From a virus: DNA of 35,745 nucleotides. Every line of letters begins with the position of its first letter. Position 1 is the first letter of the stretch. The stretch lies in the IMG/VR virus record IMGVR_UViG_3300046412_000165, positions 1 to 35,745 of that record; one strand, given 5' to 3'. The notes below the pieces were generated by a model. The model did not search any database. It saw only the letters and a list, made by a program, of their open reading frames with translations, and was not told where the DNA came from. The position numbers were made by a program, and so were the translations under genes. Shown here in pieces: positions 31,463 through 35,745 of this stretch.

Positions 31463-31488
31463 AAGGGTGCTTCGGCACCCTTTTTTTT
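31463..31488 (+). terminator. Intrinsic terminator with TTCG loop
   Basis: AAGGGTGC, TTCG tetraloop and GCACCCTT followed by a run of T to 31488. It separates the regA-downstream genes from the curli-like operon. Confidence 0.95.
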
Positions 31489-31508: not shown

Positions 31509-31516
31509 TATAAATA
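31509..31516 (+). promoter_or_regulatory. Late promoter of the curli-like operon
   Basis: An exact TATAAATA, 21 bases after the terminator's T-run. The predicted start, 31522, is two bases before the first ATG (31524), so the first message may be almost leaderless. It places the curli-like genes under gp55 control. Confidence 0.7.
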
Positions 31517-31523
31517 ATAGGTG

Positions 31524-31820
31524 ATGGAAGATATACTATTATTAATCAATGAAGTCGGTGTCCCGATTGCAAGTGCAATCGTAATGGCATTCTTTATCTT
31601 CCTAACACTTAGATACATCTTAGAGGGTGTATCAGATGATGTGAAGACTTTAACTGGCATGGTTGACATGCTAGAAGACAGATGTAGAGTTATGAATAAC
31701 GAGATCGTTAAGATTGATTTGCTTATATCTCAATCCTTAGAACTACAACCAGACCTTGATCGAGTCGCCAGAGCAGAGAACTTCGTGGAAGATGGAAGTA
31801 TTGATGCTAGGAGAGATTAA
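31524..31820 (+). CDS. Small holin-like membrane protein, paralogue A
   Basis: 98 residues from ATG 31524 (a GTG lies one codon earlier). MEDILLLINEVGVPIASAIV and MAFFIFLTLRYILEGV form one membrane helix; the rest is a charged coiled-coil-like helix (DDVKTLTGMVDMLEDRCRVM). Topology and the NEVGVPI motif recall the YvrJ/BhlA small holin-like families, with the short end outside. It matches the next gene in layout and in the [ND]E[VF]G[VY]P motif, so they are likely a duplicated pair. It is the first gene of the curli-like operon. The stop overlaps the next ATG by one base. Confidence 0.75.
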   Translation: MEDILLLINEVGVPIASAIVMAFFIFLTLRYILEGVSDDVKTLTGMVDMLEDRCRVMNNEIVKIDLLISQSLELQPDLDRVARAENFVEDGSIDARRD

Positions 31821-32110
31821 TGGTCGAAGAAGTAATCAAGGTTGTAGACGAATTTGGATACCCAGTCGTCATGTCATTGGGAATGGGTTACTTCATTTAC
31901 TTCATATGGAAATATGTAACTGAAGAACTAGAACCCAGAATAGAGAAACAAAAGATATCTCTAATTAGATTGATCGATCAAATGAGAATGTTAGATCAGG
32001 ATCAAATTAGACTTCAGCAAAAACTGAATACTGTATTAGAGTACAGAAAAGCAGAACGTTTAAGGAAGAAACTACGTAATGAAAAACCAGATAAAGTTAT
32101 TAAGTCTTAG
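31820..32110 (+). CDS. Small holin-like membrane protein, paralogue B
   Basis: 96 residues: MVEEVIKVVDEFGYPVVMSL, then GMGYFIYFIWKYVTEEL as one membrane helix, then a long basic/acidic coiled coil (QMRMLDQDQIRLQQKLNTVL) ending in a Lys/Arg-rich tail. It shares with paralogue A the DEFGYP-type turn, the aromatic membrane helix and the helix length. Two such proteins could form a heteromeric channel, a lysis pair or a platform for the export machine coded downstream. Overlaps the csgF-like gene by 32 bases. Confidence 0.75.
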   Translation: MVEEVIKVVDEFGYPVVMSLGMGYFIYFIWKYVTEELEPRIEKQKISLIRLIDQMRMLDQDQIRLQQKLNTVLEYRKAERLRKKLRNEKPDKVIKS

Positions 32111-32573
32111 TTTATTAATATCAATGCCGATCATGGCAGATGAAATCAAATTTGGTTTCAAAAATCCCTCATTCAGTGGACAGGGTACAGGTGCCCATTA
32201 CTTAACCATTGAGAACCAAGAGACATCAAGAAAGAAAGCAATCGAAGAAGCACTCGAATCAGCAAGAAAGGCCGCTGAACGTGAAGCAGAGAATAGTACC
32301 CTTGCAAAATTTATTAGGAACTTAGAATCAAGAATCTATGCCCAATTTGCAAAGCAGTTAGTAGAGAGTATGTTCTCAAACGATAATCCTGCGGGATTTG
32401 GATCGTTCATGCTTGAAGGTAATAGTATTACATGGGAAGTAATTACAAATGCCGATGGTGCAGAAGTTATAAGATTAACAATTGTAGGTGAAGACGGAAC
32501 AGAAACAGTAGTTGAGATCCCAGTTGGCACTGGTAACTTCGGTCAAGATCCAGATACAGGTTCAGGAGGATAA
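32079..32573 (+). CDS. csgF: CsgF-like curli assembly factor
   Basis: 164 residues (E. coli CsgF is 138). Signal peptide MKNQIKLLSLSLLISMPIMA, then mature DEIKFGFKNPSFSGQGTGAH and YLTIENQETSRKKAI, which match the CsgF start (F-x-F-x-NP-x-F-GG) that binds inside the CsgG pore. A basic/acidic helix (ALESARKAAEREAENSTLAK) and a beta-rich C-terminus (ITWEVITNADGAEVIRLTIV) follow, ending in GTGNFGQDPDTGSGG. In curli it tethers the nucleator to the pore. Directly upstream of csgG. AAGGA precedes the ATG. Confidence 0.85.
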   Translation: MKNQIKLLSLSLLISMPIMADEIKFGFKNPSFSGQGTGAHYLTIENQETSRKKAIEEALESARKAAEREAENSTLAKFIRNLESRIYAQFAKQLVESMFSNDNPAGFGSFMLEGNSITWEVITNADGAEVIRLTIVGEDGTETVVEIPVGTGNFGQDPDTGSGG

Positions 32574-32574
32574 A

Positions 32575-33486
32575 ATGTTACGAACACTCTTAGCATTAAC
32601 ATTGCTATTGTCAGGTTGTGCTTCGGTTCCTAAATGGAGTGAAGACCCTGCAGATTGTTCATATGAAACAGGTAAGTTTGATGAAGGTTGGGGCAAAGAT
32701 GTTTACACAGGTGTTAGAAAGTATGCAGGTTCTAAATTTATTTGTGTAGAGAGTCCAGAAGTTGTAAAGTTACCTGCATATATTGACTTACTTAATTTAC
32801 CACCTGCTGAAGAAATGCCAATAGTTTCAGTATATAATTTTAATGACAAAACAGGTCAGAGAAAATCAGTTACAAACATAGCATCTTTCTCGACAGCAGT
32901 AACACAAGGTGGTGTAGAGATGTTAATCGATGCACTTAAGACTGCTGGTGGGGGAACATGGTTTAGAGTCGTTGAAAGAAACGGCATCGATGCATTACTA
33001 AGAGAAAGACAGATCATTAGAAGTGCAAGACAAGATTACGCAAAAATTTCGGGGGAAGAACCCCAAGGTTTACAACCACTACTATTTGCAGGAATGCTAA
33101 TTGAAGGTGGTATAATTGGTTATGATTCTAATATATTAACGGGTGGACGAGGCGCACGGACACTTGGTATTGGATATGCGAAACAATATCGACAAGATGT
33201 TGTTACAATCTCCATAAGGGCAGTTAGTGTTCTTACTGGAGAAGTTTTATTAAATGTACAAACTCGGAAAACGATTTTAAGTTATGGTTCATCGGGAGAT
33301 ATTTTTAGATTTATCGAACAAGGAACACAATTAATTGAGTTTGAAGACGGTGTGGGTAATAATGAGTCAGTGACGTATGCAGTACGTGTTGCCATTGAGG
33401 CAGGTGTACTGGAATTAATCTACCAAGGCCATGAACGTGGTTATTGGAAAATAGAAGGGTATAACGAAAATGAAAAAACTAAGTAG
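32575..33486 (+). CDS. csgG: CsgG-like outer-membrane secretion pore lipoprotein
   Basis: 303 residues from ATG 32575 (E. coli CsgG is 277). Lipobox LSGC at residues 13-16 in MLRTLLALTLLLSGCASVPK. Family core: LPAYIDLLNLPPAEEMPIVS, VYNFNDKTGQRKS, STAVTQGGVEMLIDALK, WFRVVERNGIDALLRERQII, AGMLIEGGIIGYDSNILTGG and TISIRAVSVLTGEVLLNVQT. CsgG forms the nonameric pore that exports curlin. The order AYIDLLNLPP...VYDFxDxTGQ is diagnostic. The longer start at 32512 lies inside csgF. It overlaps the curlin-like gene by 17 bases. Confidence 0.95.
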   Translation: MLRTLLALTLLLSGCASVPKWSEDPADCSYETGKFDEGWGKDVYTGVRKYAGSKFICVESPEVVKLPAYIDLLNLPPAEEMPIVSVYNFNDKTGQRKSVTNIASFSTAVTQGGVEMLIDALKTAGGGTWFRVVERNGIDALLRERQIIRSARQDYAKISGEEPQGLQPLLFAGMLIEGGIIGYDSNILTGGRGARTLGIGYAKQYRQDVVTISIRAVSVLTGEVLLNVQTRKTILSYGSSGDIFRFIEQGTQLIEFEDGVGNNESVTYAVRVAIEAGVLELIYQGHERGYWKIEGYNENEKTK

Positions 33487-34207
33487 TATATTATTACTGA
33501 TGTCGACAACTTTTGTTTTCGCACAATCCACTGATGATAACGAAATAAAAATCACCCAAACCGGTGATACTCTAAAACTTTATATCGACCAAATAGGATT
33601 TGGTAACAAAGTTGGAGGTTCTAATGGAAACGACGGGTCATTGACAACAATGGCAATTACTGGTGCAACATTAGACTTCAACATCGATATGTTAGGAGAC
33701 CAAAACAAATTGTTTGGACCTGTAGAAGCAGATAGTTCTAACTATCTCATTGATATTACAGGTGATCAAAACAGTATTGATTGGAACATTGGTTATACAG
33801 GTTCATCAGATGATTCGGATATTAATTTCGATATCACAGGAGATAGCAACACATTTGATTTAGATCAAGGATATGTTGCAAGTGCTGAAAGACTAGACGC
33901 CGACCTTATATTAATAGGTAGTTCGAATATTTTTGATATTGACTGGGAATCAGACGATTTAACATGGAACTTAGATATAACTGGTGGTTCAAACAATATT
34001 AATACATTGCAAAACGATGGTGAGCAAACATTAGACTTCACCTTAGATGGAGATAGTGCAGACGTGGATATCAATCAGATATCTGGTTCATGTGCAACAG
34101 GTGCCCCACAGGCATGTGTTACACCGAATGCAACTATTATTCTTGACGTAACAAGTGATAATGCAATTATTCAACTTACACAAAAAGATTCGTCTAACGA
34201 TTCTTAA
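33470..34207 (+). CDS. Secreted curlin-like repeat protein (candidate amyloid substrate)
   Basis: 245 residues. Signal peptide 1-18 (MKKLSSILLLMSTTFVFA). The mature start has DDNEIKITQTGDTLKLYIDQ and IGFGNKVGG, much like curlin repeats (x-Q-x-G-x-x-N-x). Repeats with the pattern ITGDxN follow near residues 76, 98, 124, 150, 172 and 194, a period of 22-26 as in beta-solenoid curlins. Very acidic, rich in Asp/Asn/Gly/Ser, with only two Cys (208, 216). The gene follows csgF and csgG. I infer a CsgA/CsgB-type substrate of the pore; similarity to known curlins cannot be measured here. Confidence 0.8.
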   Translation: MKKLSSILLLMSTTFVFAQSTDDNEIKITQTGDTLKLYIDQIGFGNKVGGSNGNDGSLTTMAITGATLDFNIDMLGDQNKLFGPVEADSSNYLIDITGDQNSIDWNIGYTGSSDDSDINFDITGDSNTFDLDQGYVASAERLDADLILIGSSNIFDIDWESDDLTWNLDITGGSNNINTLQNDGEQTLDFTLDGDSADVDINQISGSCATGAPQACVTPNATIILDVTSDNAIIQLTQKDSSNDS

Positions 34208-35303
34208 TTTAATTTTCCTCAGCGGGTTTGCTTTTGCTGAACCCGTTGGGGAGATTTCTGAGTCTACAGGACTCGGATCAATTCTTAGAAATTCAGAAGA
34301 AGTTGGCAATCAGGTCAACACAGAAATCATATTAAAAGACGAAGCATCGACAGGTAATGGTCGAATGAAGATCGTATTCCTTGATGAAGAGGTCCTAGAT
34401 ATGACTGAAAATACATATGCATATATCGACGAAGCATATTATGATCCTAATCCAGATCTATCTCAAATGTCAATTAGAGTTGCAAGAGGTACAGCAAGAT
34501 TCACATCTGGTAAAGGTAAAAAAATTAAAAAAGCAAACGTAAATGTAGGTACACCTACAGCACAGATCACAATCAAGGGAACAGATTTCACTACAACCGT
34601 AGATGAGATAGGGAGAACTCTTGTCATATTACTCCCAGATGAAACAGGCGAACAATCATCTGGTGAGATAACAGTTTTAAATGAGGGTGGTGAAGTAACT
34701 CTCACTCAGGCATATGAAGCAACTATGGTTTCAACATGGGAAACACCACCAACTCAAAGTGTTACACTCAATGGTGTGACACCCAATATAATCGATAACA
34801 TGTTTATCGTCAATCCACCTCAAGAAGTGCAAGACAGAGTGGCAGAAGAGGCACAAAATGACCTTGATCAGGATCAAGGAATATTAGATGTAGACTTCTT
34901 AGAGTTCAATGAACTAGAACAAGATGCTCTCGCAGACACTACAGAAGACCTAGAGTTTTCTGAACTTGACATAGACATGCTAGATGTAGATTTCTTAACC
35001 GACTTATTAGATGTCGTAGAAGAATTAGAGAGAACAACAGTAGTATTTGGAGATGCACAGAAAGTATCTGCAGGTGACTTTTCACTTAAGGGTGCTAATA
35101 TAGGATTCAACAAAGACTCTCAGTTTAACGTGTTCGTACAAGATGGCGACTTATACTTCTATAGAAATGTCAATGGCACAATCGAAGTTATCATTGCACA
35201 AGGGGGAAGTGGATTCTTAGACGTGGGCGTAGAAGGATATCAAGGTATTATTGAATTCGGTGATGGTAACGGAATCGAAATTGTTATAAGACAAACTAAC
35301 TAA
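34161..35303 (+). CDS. Secreted FecR-domain protein
   Basis: 380 residues from ATG 34161 (GTG 34155 also possible). Signal peptide of about 26 residues ending LSGFAFA. A FecR-type domain at about 30-135: GSILRNSEEVGNQVNTEIIL, then GRMKIVFLDEEVLDMTENTY, ISIRVARGTARF-like SIRVARGTARFTSGK, and VNVGTPTAQITIKGTDF. The middle is acidic with two LDVDFL-like repeats; the end is beta-rich (GDLYFYRNVNGTIEVIIAQG). FecR domains are usually in sigma-regulator or cell-surface proteins; here it is exported and embedded in the curli-like operon, so it may bind or shape the fibre or wall. Overlaps the curlin-like gene by 47 bases. Confidence 0.8.
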   Translation: MQLFNLHKKIRLTILNLIFLSGFAFAEPVGEISESTGLGSILRNSEEVGNQVNTEIILKDEASTGNGRMKIVFLDEEVLDMTENTYAYIDEAYYDPNPDLSQMSIRVARGTARFTSGKGKKIKKANVNVGTPTAQITIKGTDFTTTVDEIGRTLVILLPDETGEQSSGEITVLNEGGEVTLTQAYEATMVSTWETPPTQSVTLNGVTPNIIDNMFIVNPPQEVQDRVAEEAQNDLDQDQGILDVDFLEFNELEQDALADTTEDLEFSELDIDMLDVDFLTDLLDVVEELERTTVVFGDAQKVSAGDFSLKGANIGFNKDSQFNVFVQDGDLYFYRNVNGTIEVIIAQGGSGFLDVGVEGYQGIIEFGDGNGIEIVIRQTN

Positions 35304-35325: not shown

Positions 35326-35472
35326 ATGGATAGACTTAAATCTTTCATAAAGTGGCATGAGAGACAAACTGAATTCTTTACATATGAACTAGGTTTGTCA
35401 CAATATCAAACCATGTGGATAGCATGGACAAAAGGTATATTAACAGTATTAATATTACAATGGATATTTTAA
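35326..35472 (+). CDS. 48-residue protein with C-terminal membrane helix
   Basis: MDRLKSFIKWHERQTEFFTY then ELGLSQYQTMWIAWTKGILT and VLILQWIF. The last 20 residues form a Trp-rich hydrophobic helix, so the protein probably sits in the inner membrane with its N-terminus in the cytoplasm. AGGAGG, eight bases ahead of the ATG, is a strong site. Its end overlaps the next curlin-like start by 13 bases, so the two are coupled. It may be a chaperone, anchor or lysis factor for that pair; there is no direct evidence. Confidence 0.65.
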   Translation: MDRLKSFIKWHERQTEFFTYELGLSQYQTMWIAWTKGILTVLILQWIF

Positions 35473-35745
35473 AGAAAATATTATTAACAATCATAGGGAT
35501 ATCAATTATCCCTATGACCTTATGGGCAGATGATAACGAGATATCACTTACACAAAGTGGTAATAACTTTTCATTAGAAATCAAACAAGTGGGATTCAAC
35601 AATAAAGTAGGTATGTTAGATTCACAATCATATATCAACAATGCACCAGATTTAGATATACATATCGTTCAATACAACTTTACTGCTAATCAAAATCAGA
35701 TTATCTTTGATGAAGTATCAGGTTCAAGTAATGAATTTAGACTAG
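35460..35745 (+). CDS. Second curlin-like secreted protein (3' cut by window)
   Basis: The first 95 codons of an open frame that runs off the window. Signal peptide MDILKKILLTIIGISIIPMT with LWA, then DDNEISLTQSGNNFSLEIKQ and VGFNNKVG, closely parallel to the start of the curlin-like protein at 33470 (DDNEIKITQTG, QIGFGNKVG). Later residues show Asn/Gln/Gly-rich repeats with QYNFTANQNQIIF and GSSNEFRL. A paralogue, perhaps a nucleator to the other's subunit, as CsgB is to CsgA. The full length and repeat count cannot be seen. Confidence 0.75.
   Translation, partial: MDILKKILLTIIGISIIPMTLWADDNEISLTQSGNNFSLEIKQVGFNNKVGMLDSQSYINNAPDLDIHIVQYNFTANQNQIIFDEVSGSSNEFRL

Follow-up and report, generated by a model that had tools for sequence, protein, structure and literature searches.

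Curli genes are present in phages of the SAR11 type but not in their hosts, and three guesses have been published as to what these genes make: a fibre, a lysis pore or an import pore. The same question is raised by the stretch of DNA analysed here (the window), the 35,745 nucleotides of IMG/VR virus record IMGVR_UViG_3300046412_000165, in which an open reading frame on the plus strand (33470–34207) encodes a curlin-like protein of 245 residues, denoted curlin1. The virus is a T4-like marine myophage: other genes of the window are of T4 type, with Pfam hits to RegA and to the small subunit of the clamp loader, and its terminase is closest to that of the Kyanoviridae phage C48C1 (56%). Our preferred reading is a secreted, adhesive fibre made late in infection, rather than a pure lysis pore; curlin1 probably belongs, together with a second secreted curlin subunit, to a phage curli operon, which would build a late, acidic, amyloid-like fibre.

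Curlin1 starts with a signal-peptide-like segment (residues 1–18; signal peptides of all genes were assigned by eye). The first residues of the mature protein, DDNEIKITQTGDTLKLYIDQIGFGN, are a canonical curlin repeat (residues 22–48), and the start TQTGDTLKLYIDQIGFGN has the curlin spacing, with Q30-x-G32 followed by Q41-x-G43-x-x-N46. The turns after the first repeat are Asp-rich, of the form [I/L/M]xGDxN, and lie 22–26 residues apart. G-x-x-N arcs are found at G65, G76, G98, G124, G150, G172 and G194; those with a hydrophobic residue two positions before the glycine (G76, G98, G124, G150 and G172) follow each other in steps of 22, 26, 26 and 22 residues. The pattern [ILVFMT]x[ILVFMT]xGxx[N/A] occurs six times, compared with 0.38 in shuffles of the same composition, none of 20,000 of which reaches six, and G[DSTGN]xN occurs seven times, compared with 1.09. 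The mature protein contains 15.9% Asp and 2.6% Lys plus Arg, with a predicted pI of about 4.05, the floor of the program, and has a conserved cysteine pair (C208/C216). The original prediction was therefore right about the position of the frame, its acidic, Asp-rich composition and its curlin-like TQ-x-G...Q-x-G-x-x-N start; the 22–26-residue spacing that it proposed for ITGDxN repeats also holds, whereas the strict motif is present in two copies only (G98 and G124), other turn variants being MLGDQN, LIGSSN, ITGGSN and LDGDSA.

The full curlin1 frame matches the Pfam model Curlin_rpt (PF07012) with 23.5 bits, above the curated cut-off of 20.7, and the same model matches 55 of 61 non-redundant relatives (E≤0.01). 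The kernel N-x-psi-x-psi-x-Q-x-G-x-x-N is whole only in repeat 1; the later repeats keep the G-x-x-N and the hydrophobic core, with most of the motif-a glutamines replaced. In a by-position tally, the motif-a Gln position is occupied by Ile, Leu, Val or Phe in most repeats, and the motif-b Asn position is Asn in 60%. Since the motif-a Gln ladder has mostly been exchanged for Ile, Leu, Val and Phe, curlin1 is, as judged from its sequence, a curlin of the degenerate class, a term used for CsgA by Sleutel et al. (PMC10192328).

The AlphaFold2 (AF2) model of curlin1, built with 61 relatives, is an all-beta solenoid of 15 strands with no helix (mean pLDDT 86.6, pTM 0.83). In BFVD, its best viral structure matches (TM 0.81) come from phages and bear the name 'Curlin associated'. 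Together, the PF07012 match, the AF2 model and 113 relatives describe curlin1 as a putative secreted, acidic, degenerate-class curlin subunit. Of the 54 positions assigned to the core of the model, 43 are hydrophobic and none acidic, while 20 of the 64 assigned surface positions are acidic (core versus surface, p = 1.6e-6); a shift of the register by one reverses the acid split. The register was set from Gly arcs picked by the analyst, which makes the comparison supportive and not an independent proof of register.

These results bear on what had been predicted about the fold. A structure prediction had been proposed as the check for a stacked-repeat beta-solenoid, and it returned one; a globular or fibre-tip fold is rejected, the model being all-beta and repetitive. 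Divergence from E. coli CsgA was correctly anticipated, with the motif-a Gln ladder mostly replaced by hydrophobic residues. Where the choice had been left between a divergent amyloid and a calcium-tolerant beta-solenoid, the Curlin_rpt match, the AF2 model and the csgF and csgG neighbours speak for a curlin-like beta-solenoid, and the calcium part finds no support. GGxGxD, from the RTX nonapeptide GGxGxDxUx, is absent from the whole curlin1 protein and the acidic residues are on the outward face; an RTX or calcium beta-roll was rejected on these grounds, and calcium binding by curlin1 has no specific support.

A sequence search of the PDB with the single curlin1 protein gave no match, and Foldseek on the PDB gave none under E 0.001. 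The AF2 models of curlin1 and of curlin2 (the chain from contig L001, which carries an identical curlin1; pLDDT 80.7, also a solenoid) match the beta-helices of SufB/SufD (Z ~17) and DUF2807 adhesins (Z ~13). The helices of SufB/SufD and of DUF2807 adhesins are right-handed. The best PDB matches of the phage curlin models, in a list of compared chains outside which 8c50 and 8enq lie, are thus right-handed, whereas published CsgA models are left-handed; because these solved curlins were outside the chains compared, the right-handed matches do not show a different fold.

By its gene content, the phage carries its own type VIII secretion (curli) operon, in which csgF and csgG immediately precede curlin1 and make it the third gene of csg type. 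The genes from tmA to curlin2 described here are on the plus strand. The operon is headed by tmA (31521–31820; PHROG 18771), encoding a small coiled-coil protein with one TM helix, and by its paralogue tmB (31820–32110; same PHROG, blastp 2e-8), which shares 1 nt with tmA and 32 nt with csgF. The csgF gene (32079–32573), for the pore-associated nucleation/anchoring factor, has a signal-peptide-like start and matches PF10614 with 47.2 bits (cut-off 25.8); a single-sequence PDB search with it found no CsgF. The csgG gene (32575–33486) encodes the outer-membrane curli secretion pore lipoprotein, with the lipobox LLSGC and matches to PF03783 (E 1.1e-51) and to E. coli CsgG structures (4uv3 and others; E 6e-49). 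Its end overlaps the start of curlin1 by 17 nt, and the two overlap in nearly all loci measured. A gene for a FecR-domain protein of about 380 residues (34161–35303; signal-peptide-like start, PF04773 36 bits) overlaps the end of curlin1, and a second, more canonical curlin, curlin2 (35460–35744), is cut by the window end (PF07012 18.2 bits in the fragment). Reading frames of operon neighbours overlap; a small TM-type frame of about 48 codons (35327–35473), between fecR and curlin2, also overlaps the curlin2 start.

The order tmA-tmB-csgF-csgG-curlin1-FecR-curlin2 is found in most of 160 IMG/VR loci. The FecR gene is kept between the two curlins in relatives, tmA precedes csgF at nearly every locus with sequence reaching that far, and a CHASE2-type cyclase usually comes next where the contig extends. 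The CsgE gate gave no match over cut-off in 12 records, with a positive E. coli control; its lack has been reported for pelagiphages too. Judged by position, tmA and tmB are probably the 'histidine kinase, sometimes two' of PMC9599517. No kinase domain was found in them in Pfam, NCBIfam or PHROGs, and as tandem genes (31521–32110), each encoding a coiled coil and a single TM helix, they look more holin-like. In contigs L204, L206 and L207, tmA/tmB-like genes lie downstream of the cyclase in the opposite orientation; the module has thus been rearranged in that lineage.

This operon escaped the original prediction and has already been published for pelagiphages (PMC7029224, PMC9599517, PMC9004378), of whose module the window is a further member. 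It was described in 2020 (PMC7029224); PMC9599517 (2022) identifies CsgA/B, FecR and the cyclase and reports the module at all 65 GOV2.0 stations, with transcripts in metatranscriptomes. Cellular 'homologues' from a genome scan were rejected as phage contigs binned into MAGs, five of the six carrying phage tmA/tmB; module-bearing phage contigs (L161–L165) sit in MAGs labelled Sphingobacteriales, Rhodobacteraceae, Synechococcus and Flavobacteriales. A 'Salmonella phage' csgG match (OR851715.1), an unverified and unannotated 1.5-kb record that is largely a csgG-like gene, was also set aside; it probably does not represent DNA of a phage of that host.

At the operon head lies a T4-type late promoter motif, TATAAATA (31509–31516, plus strand), behind an intrinsic terminator (31463–31482, plus strand; AAGGGTGCTTCGGCACCCTT with a T-run) that separates the curli operon from the regA cluster. 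The terminator hairpin with T-run is present in 30 of 104 relatives, compared with 1% in the control. The count of TATAAATA in the window alone is not above chance (5, with 3.3 expected), so that only its positional conservation counts. Of 99 distinct leaders, 58 have the exact octamer at most 60 nt from tmA; before the other genes it is found in 0 of 107 (csgF), 0 of 110 (csgG), 1 of 106 (curlin1) and 0 of 98 (fecR). In the Methylophilales phage Melnitz it lies 7 nt before the tmA orthologue, and in the pelagiphage HTVC008M the terminator and the octamer are ahead of the gene preceding tmA. The commonest spacing from the start of the octamer to the ATG is 13 nt, which would give a nearly leaderless transcript. 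Counts of sigma-70 promoters in the window are at shuffle level, and Rfam and tRNA scans of it were empty. The position of the motif before tmA suggests that the curli module is made late in infection. A late motif at the operon head was not found in the open-access PMC papers searched and may be reported elsewhere.

The two curlins differ in ways that suggest different tasks. A full curlin2 is available from L001 (6060–6701 of that contig; mature chain of 214 residues, PF07012 20.8 bits). Among relatives gathered by similarity to the window, whose figures describe near kin, mature curlin1 is 223 residues long with an SD of 2.4 (n=146 copies), and its median dN/dS of 0.13 indicates purifying selection, compared with 0.24 for curlin2 and 0.22 for csgG. 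Curlin2 has more Q-x-G and N-x5-Q units and a wider length variation, part of which reflects truncated or mis-anchored frames. With its fixed length, the strongest conservation of the subunits and its translational overlap with csgG, curlin1 most likely acts as the CsgB-like subunit, which anchors or nucleates; curlin2, whose Gln/Asn ladders are more canonical and whose length varies, is most likely the CsgA-like one, which polymerises and displays. This division of labour, with the displayed curlin2 sometimes lectin-headed, is probable. The contrast in length and dN/dS was not found in the open-access PMC papers searched and may be reported elsewhere.

HTVC008M curlin2 has a PA14 domain ahead of the curlin stalk (Pfam 2.7e-6, over cut-off); HTVC008M-like relatives whose stalks are 89–93% identical have an unrelated head of similar size (no blastp hit between heads). 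PA14 heads are present in L170, L171, L200 and L204, and another head, with no Pfam match, in L179, L183, L184, L190 and L194; matches to PA14 and GLEYA recur in L171, L200 and L204, the GLEYA ones scoring under the cut-off of that model. L200, whose whole module differs, has a head with 64% identity to that of HTVC008M. This 289,070-bp contig (IMGVR_UViG_3300025502_001322) has the order csgF-csgG-curlin-FecR-PA14/curlin-cyclase, without tmA/tmB. Surface adhesins typically combine a conserved stalk with heads that can be exchanged; head exchange in curlin2 is what one would expect if it is an adhesin displayed at the surface, and not if the module is a bare pore. The exchange was not found in the open-access PMC papers searched and may be reported elsewhere. 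Curlin2 of the window virus has no adhesin head.

It has been proposed for Melnitz (PMC9004378) that the module is a gated outer-membrane pore for lysis timing, akin to a pinholin, in which the curlins would act as its plug or gate, with no fibre being made. The small one-TM proteins TmA and TmB with their holin-like layout (one weak holin PHROG hit, E 0.25), a late motif that fits lysis timing and the fixed length of curlin1 agree with this. However, the case in PMC9004378 rested on csgA and csgB, stated to be absent; the deposited Melnitz record has two operon genes annotated 'curlin associated repeat protein', both of which match Curlin_rpt, and with two curlin genes there and in the window the premise of a pore with no curlin cargo is lost. 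A pore also has no need of a second, variable-length curlin with swapped PA14 heads. An outer-membrane pore alone cannot breach the inner membrane, and we consider a lysis pore unlikely.

Curlin1 could also be a soluble acidic beta-solenoid, secreted or held at the surface, that masks the cell from other phages without polymerisation. Its degenerate repeats, loops and conserved cysteine pair are compatible with this, and the folds nearest to it are those of beta-helices that do not polymerise and of DUF2807 adhesins. Against it, the curlin1 model has no capping domain at either end, and repeat 1 is canonical and common to curlin2 (median identity between the two curlins 48% in the first 27 residues and 28% in the rest); the late promoter is also a poor fit to superinfection exclusion, and such a mask appears improbable. 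A further suggestion (PMC7029224, PMC9599517), which the absent CsgE gate might allow, is that the CsgG-CsgF pore serves chiefly for the uptake of nutrients or cofactors by the infected cell, with the curlins as passengers. This is highly improbable, with purifying selection stronger on curlin1 than on csgG, unlike that on a passenger, and late expression a poor fit.

The secreted fibre is supported by the Curlin_rpt match, csgG and csgF upstream, the conserved order and the csgG/curlin1 overlap; by low dN/dS, AF2 solenoids, the core/surface acid split and the fixed curlin1 length; and by the late motif at the operon head, in Melnitz and HTVC008M also, together with curlin2 head exchange. Against it stand the absence of any observed fibre and of clumping in Melnitz cultures (PMC9004378), the loss of most motif-a Gln and the loop insertions, by which curlin1 may be a soluble solenoid, the missing gating factor CsgE, fold matches led by SufB/SufD beta-helices with no PDB curlins among them, and the headless curlin2 of the window. 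Upon expression from the late promoter before tmA, both curlins would be taken across the inner membrane by their signal peptides and exit via the outer-membrane pore that phage CsgG and CsgF form. Folded as two-sheet beta-solenoids, they would then stack to give an acidic fibre of amyloid-like character on the infected cell, with curlin1 as its anchor or nucleator and curlin2 as the polymerising and displaying subunit. The fibre would likely serve to make infected cells, debris or released virions stick to neighbouring hosts ('sibling capture'). More tentatively, marine T4-like phages might make such a late two-subunit acidic curli fibre, its displayed subunit a modular adhesin with exchangeable heads (of PA14/GLEYA lectin type or other; headless in the window virus), with which a cell in lysis, or its debris, would catch fresh hosts; if true, this would be a phage-encoded extracellular amyloid adhesin. 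The phage curlin subunits are real, conserved and paired, they appear to be late-expressed, and in relatives they have swapped adhesin heads, which together move the balance between the published guesses towards fibres and allow direct tests in an existing isolate, HTVC008M on HTCC1062.

Among known systems, the type VIII secretion module of pelagimyophages and pelagipodophages (HTVC008M; PMC7029224, PMC9599517) has the same genes and order as the window and no CsgE. In HTVC008M, small proteins are followed by csgF, csgG, curlin, FecR, curlin and then a CHASE2-adenylate cyclase; its record annotates csgF and csgG and labels curlin1 as CsgB. Curlin1 of the window is only about 33% identical to it, and curlin2 of L001, a near-identical contig, has no such PA14 head as is found in HTVC008M. 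The Melnitz operon (PMC9004378) has the same order, with a curlin1 about 30% identical and a longer curlin2 of 338 residues. A bacterial Colwellia curlin adjoining its own csgF and csgG has GDxN turns too (181 bits), so the acidic GDxN turn as such is not phage-specific. Matches of curlin1 to the NCBIfam models for E. coli CsgA and CsgB (NF007470, NF007506) are weak and far under the equivalog cut-offs (first repeat 19.9 bits to CsgA, cut-off 160 bits), and its family profile matches the curlin structure 8enq with E 0.087; unlike these proteins, curlin1 is Asp-rich, with few Gln-Gln pairs and no N22-like segment. The degenerate-class CsgA (PMC10192328; for example, Sediminicola A0A0S1S4K2) shares with curlin1 the replacement of N/Q ladder sites by hydrophobic residues, arc insertions, repeats longer than 23 residues and a predicted beta-solenoid. 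Curlin1 differs from it in being phage-borne, more acidic and of fixed length, and in an AF2 model that matches right-handed helices where the CsgA models are reported as left-handed.
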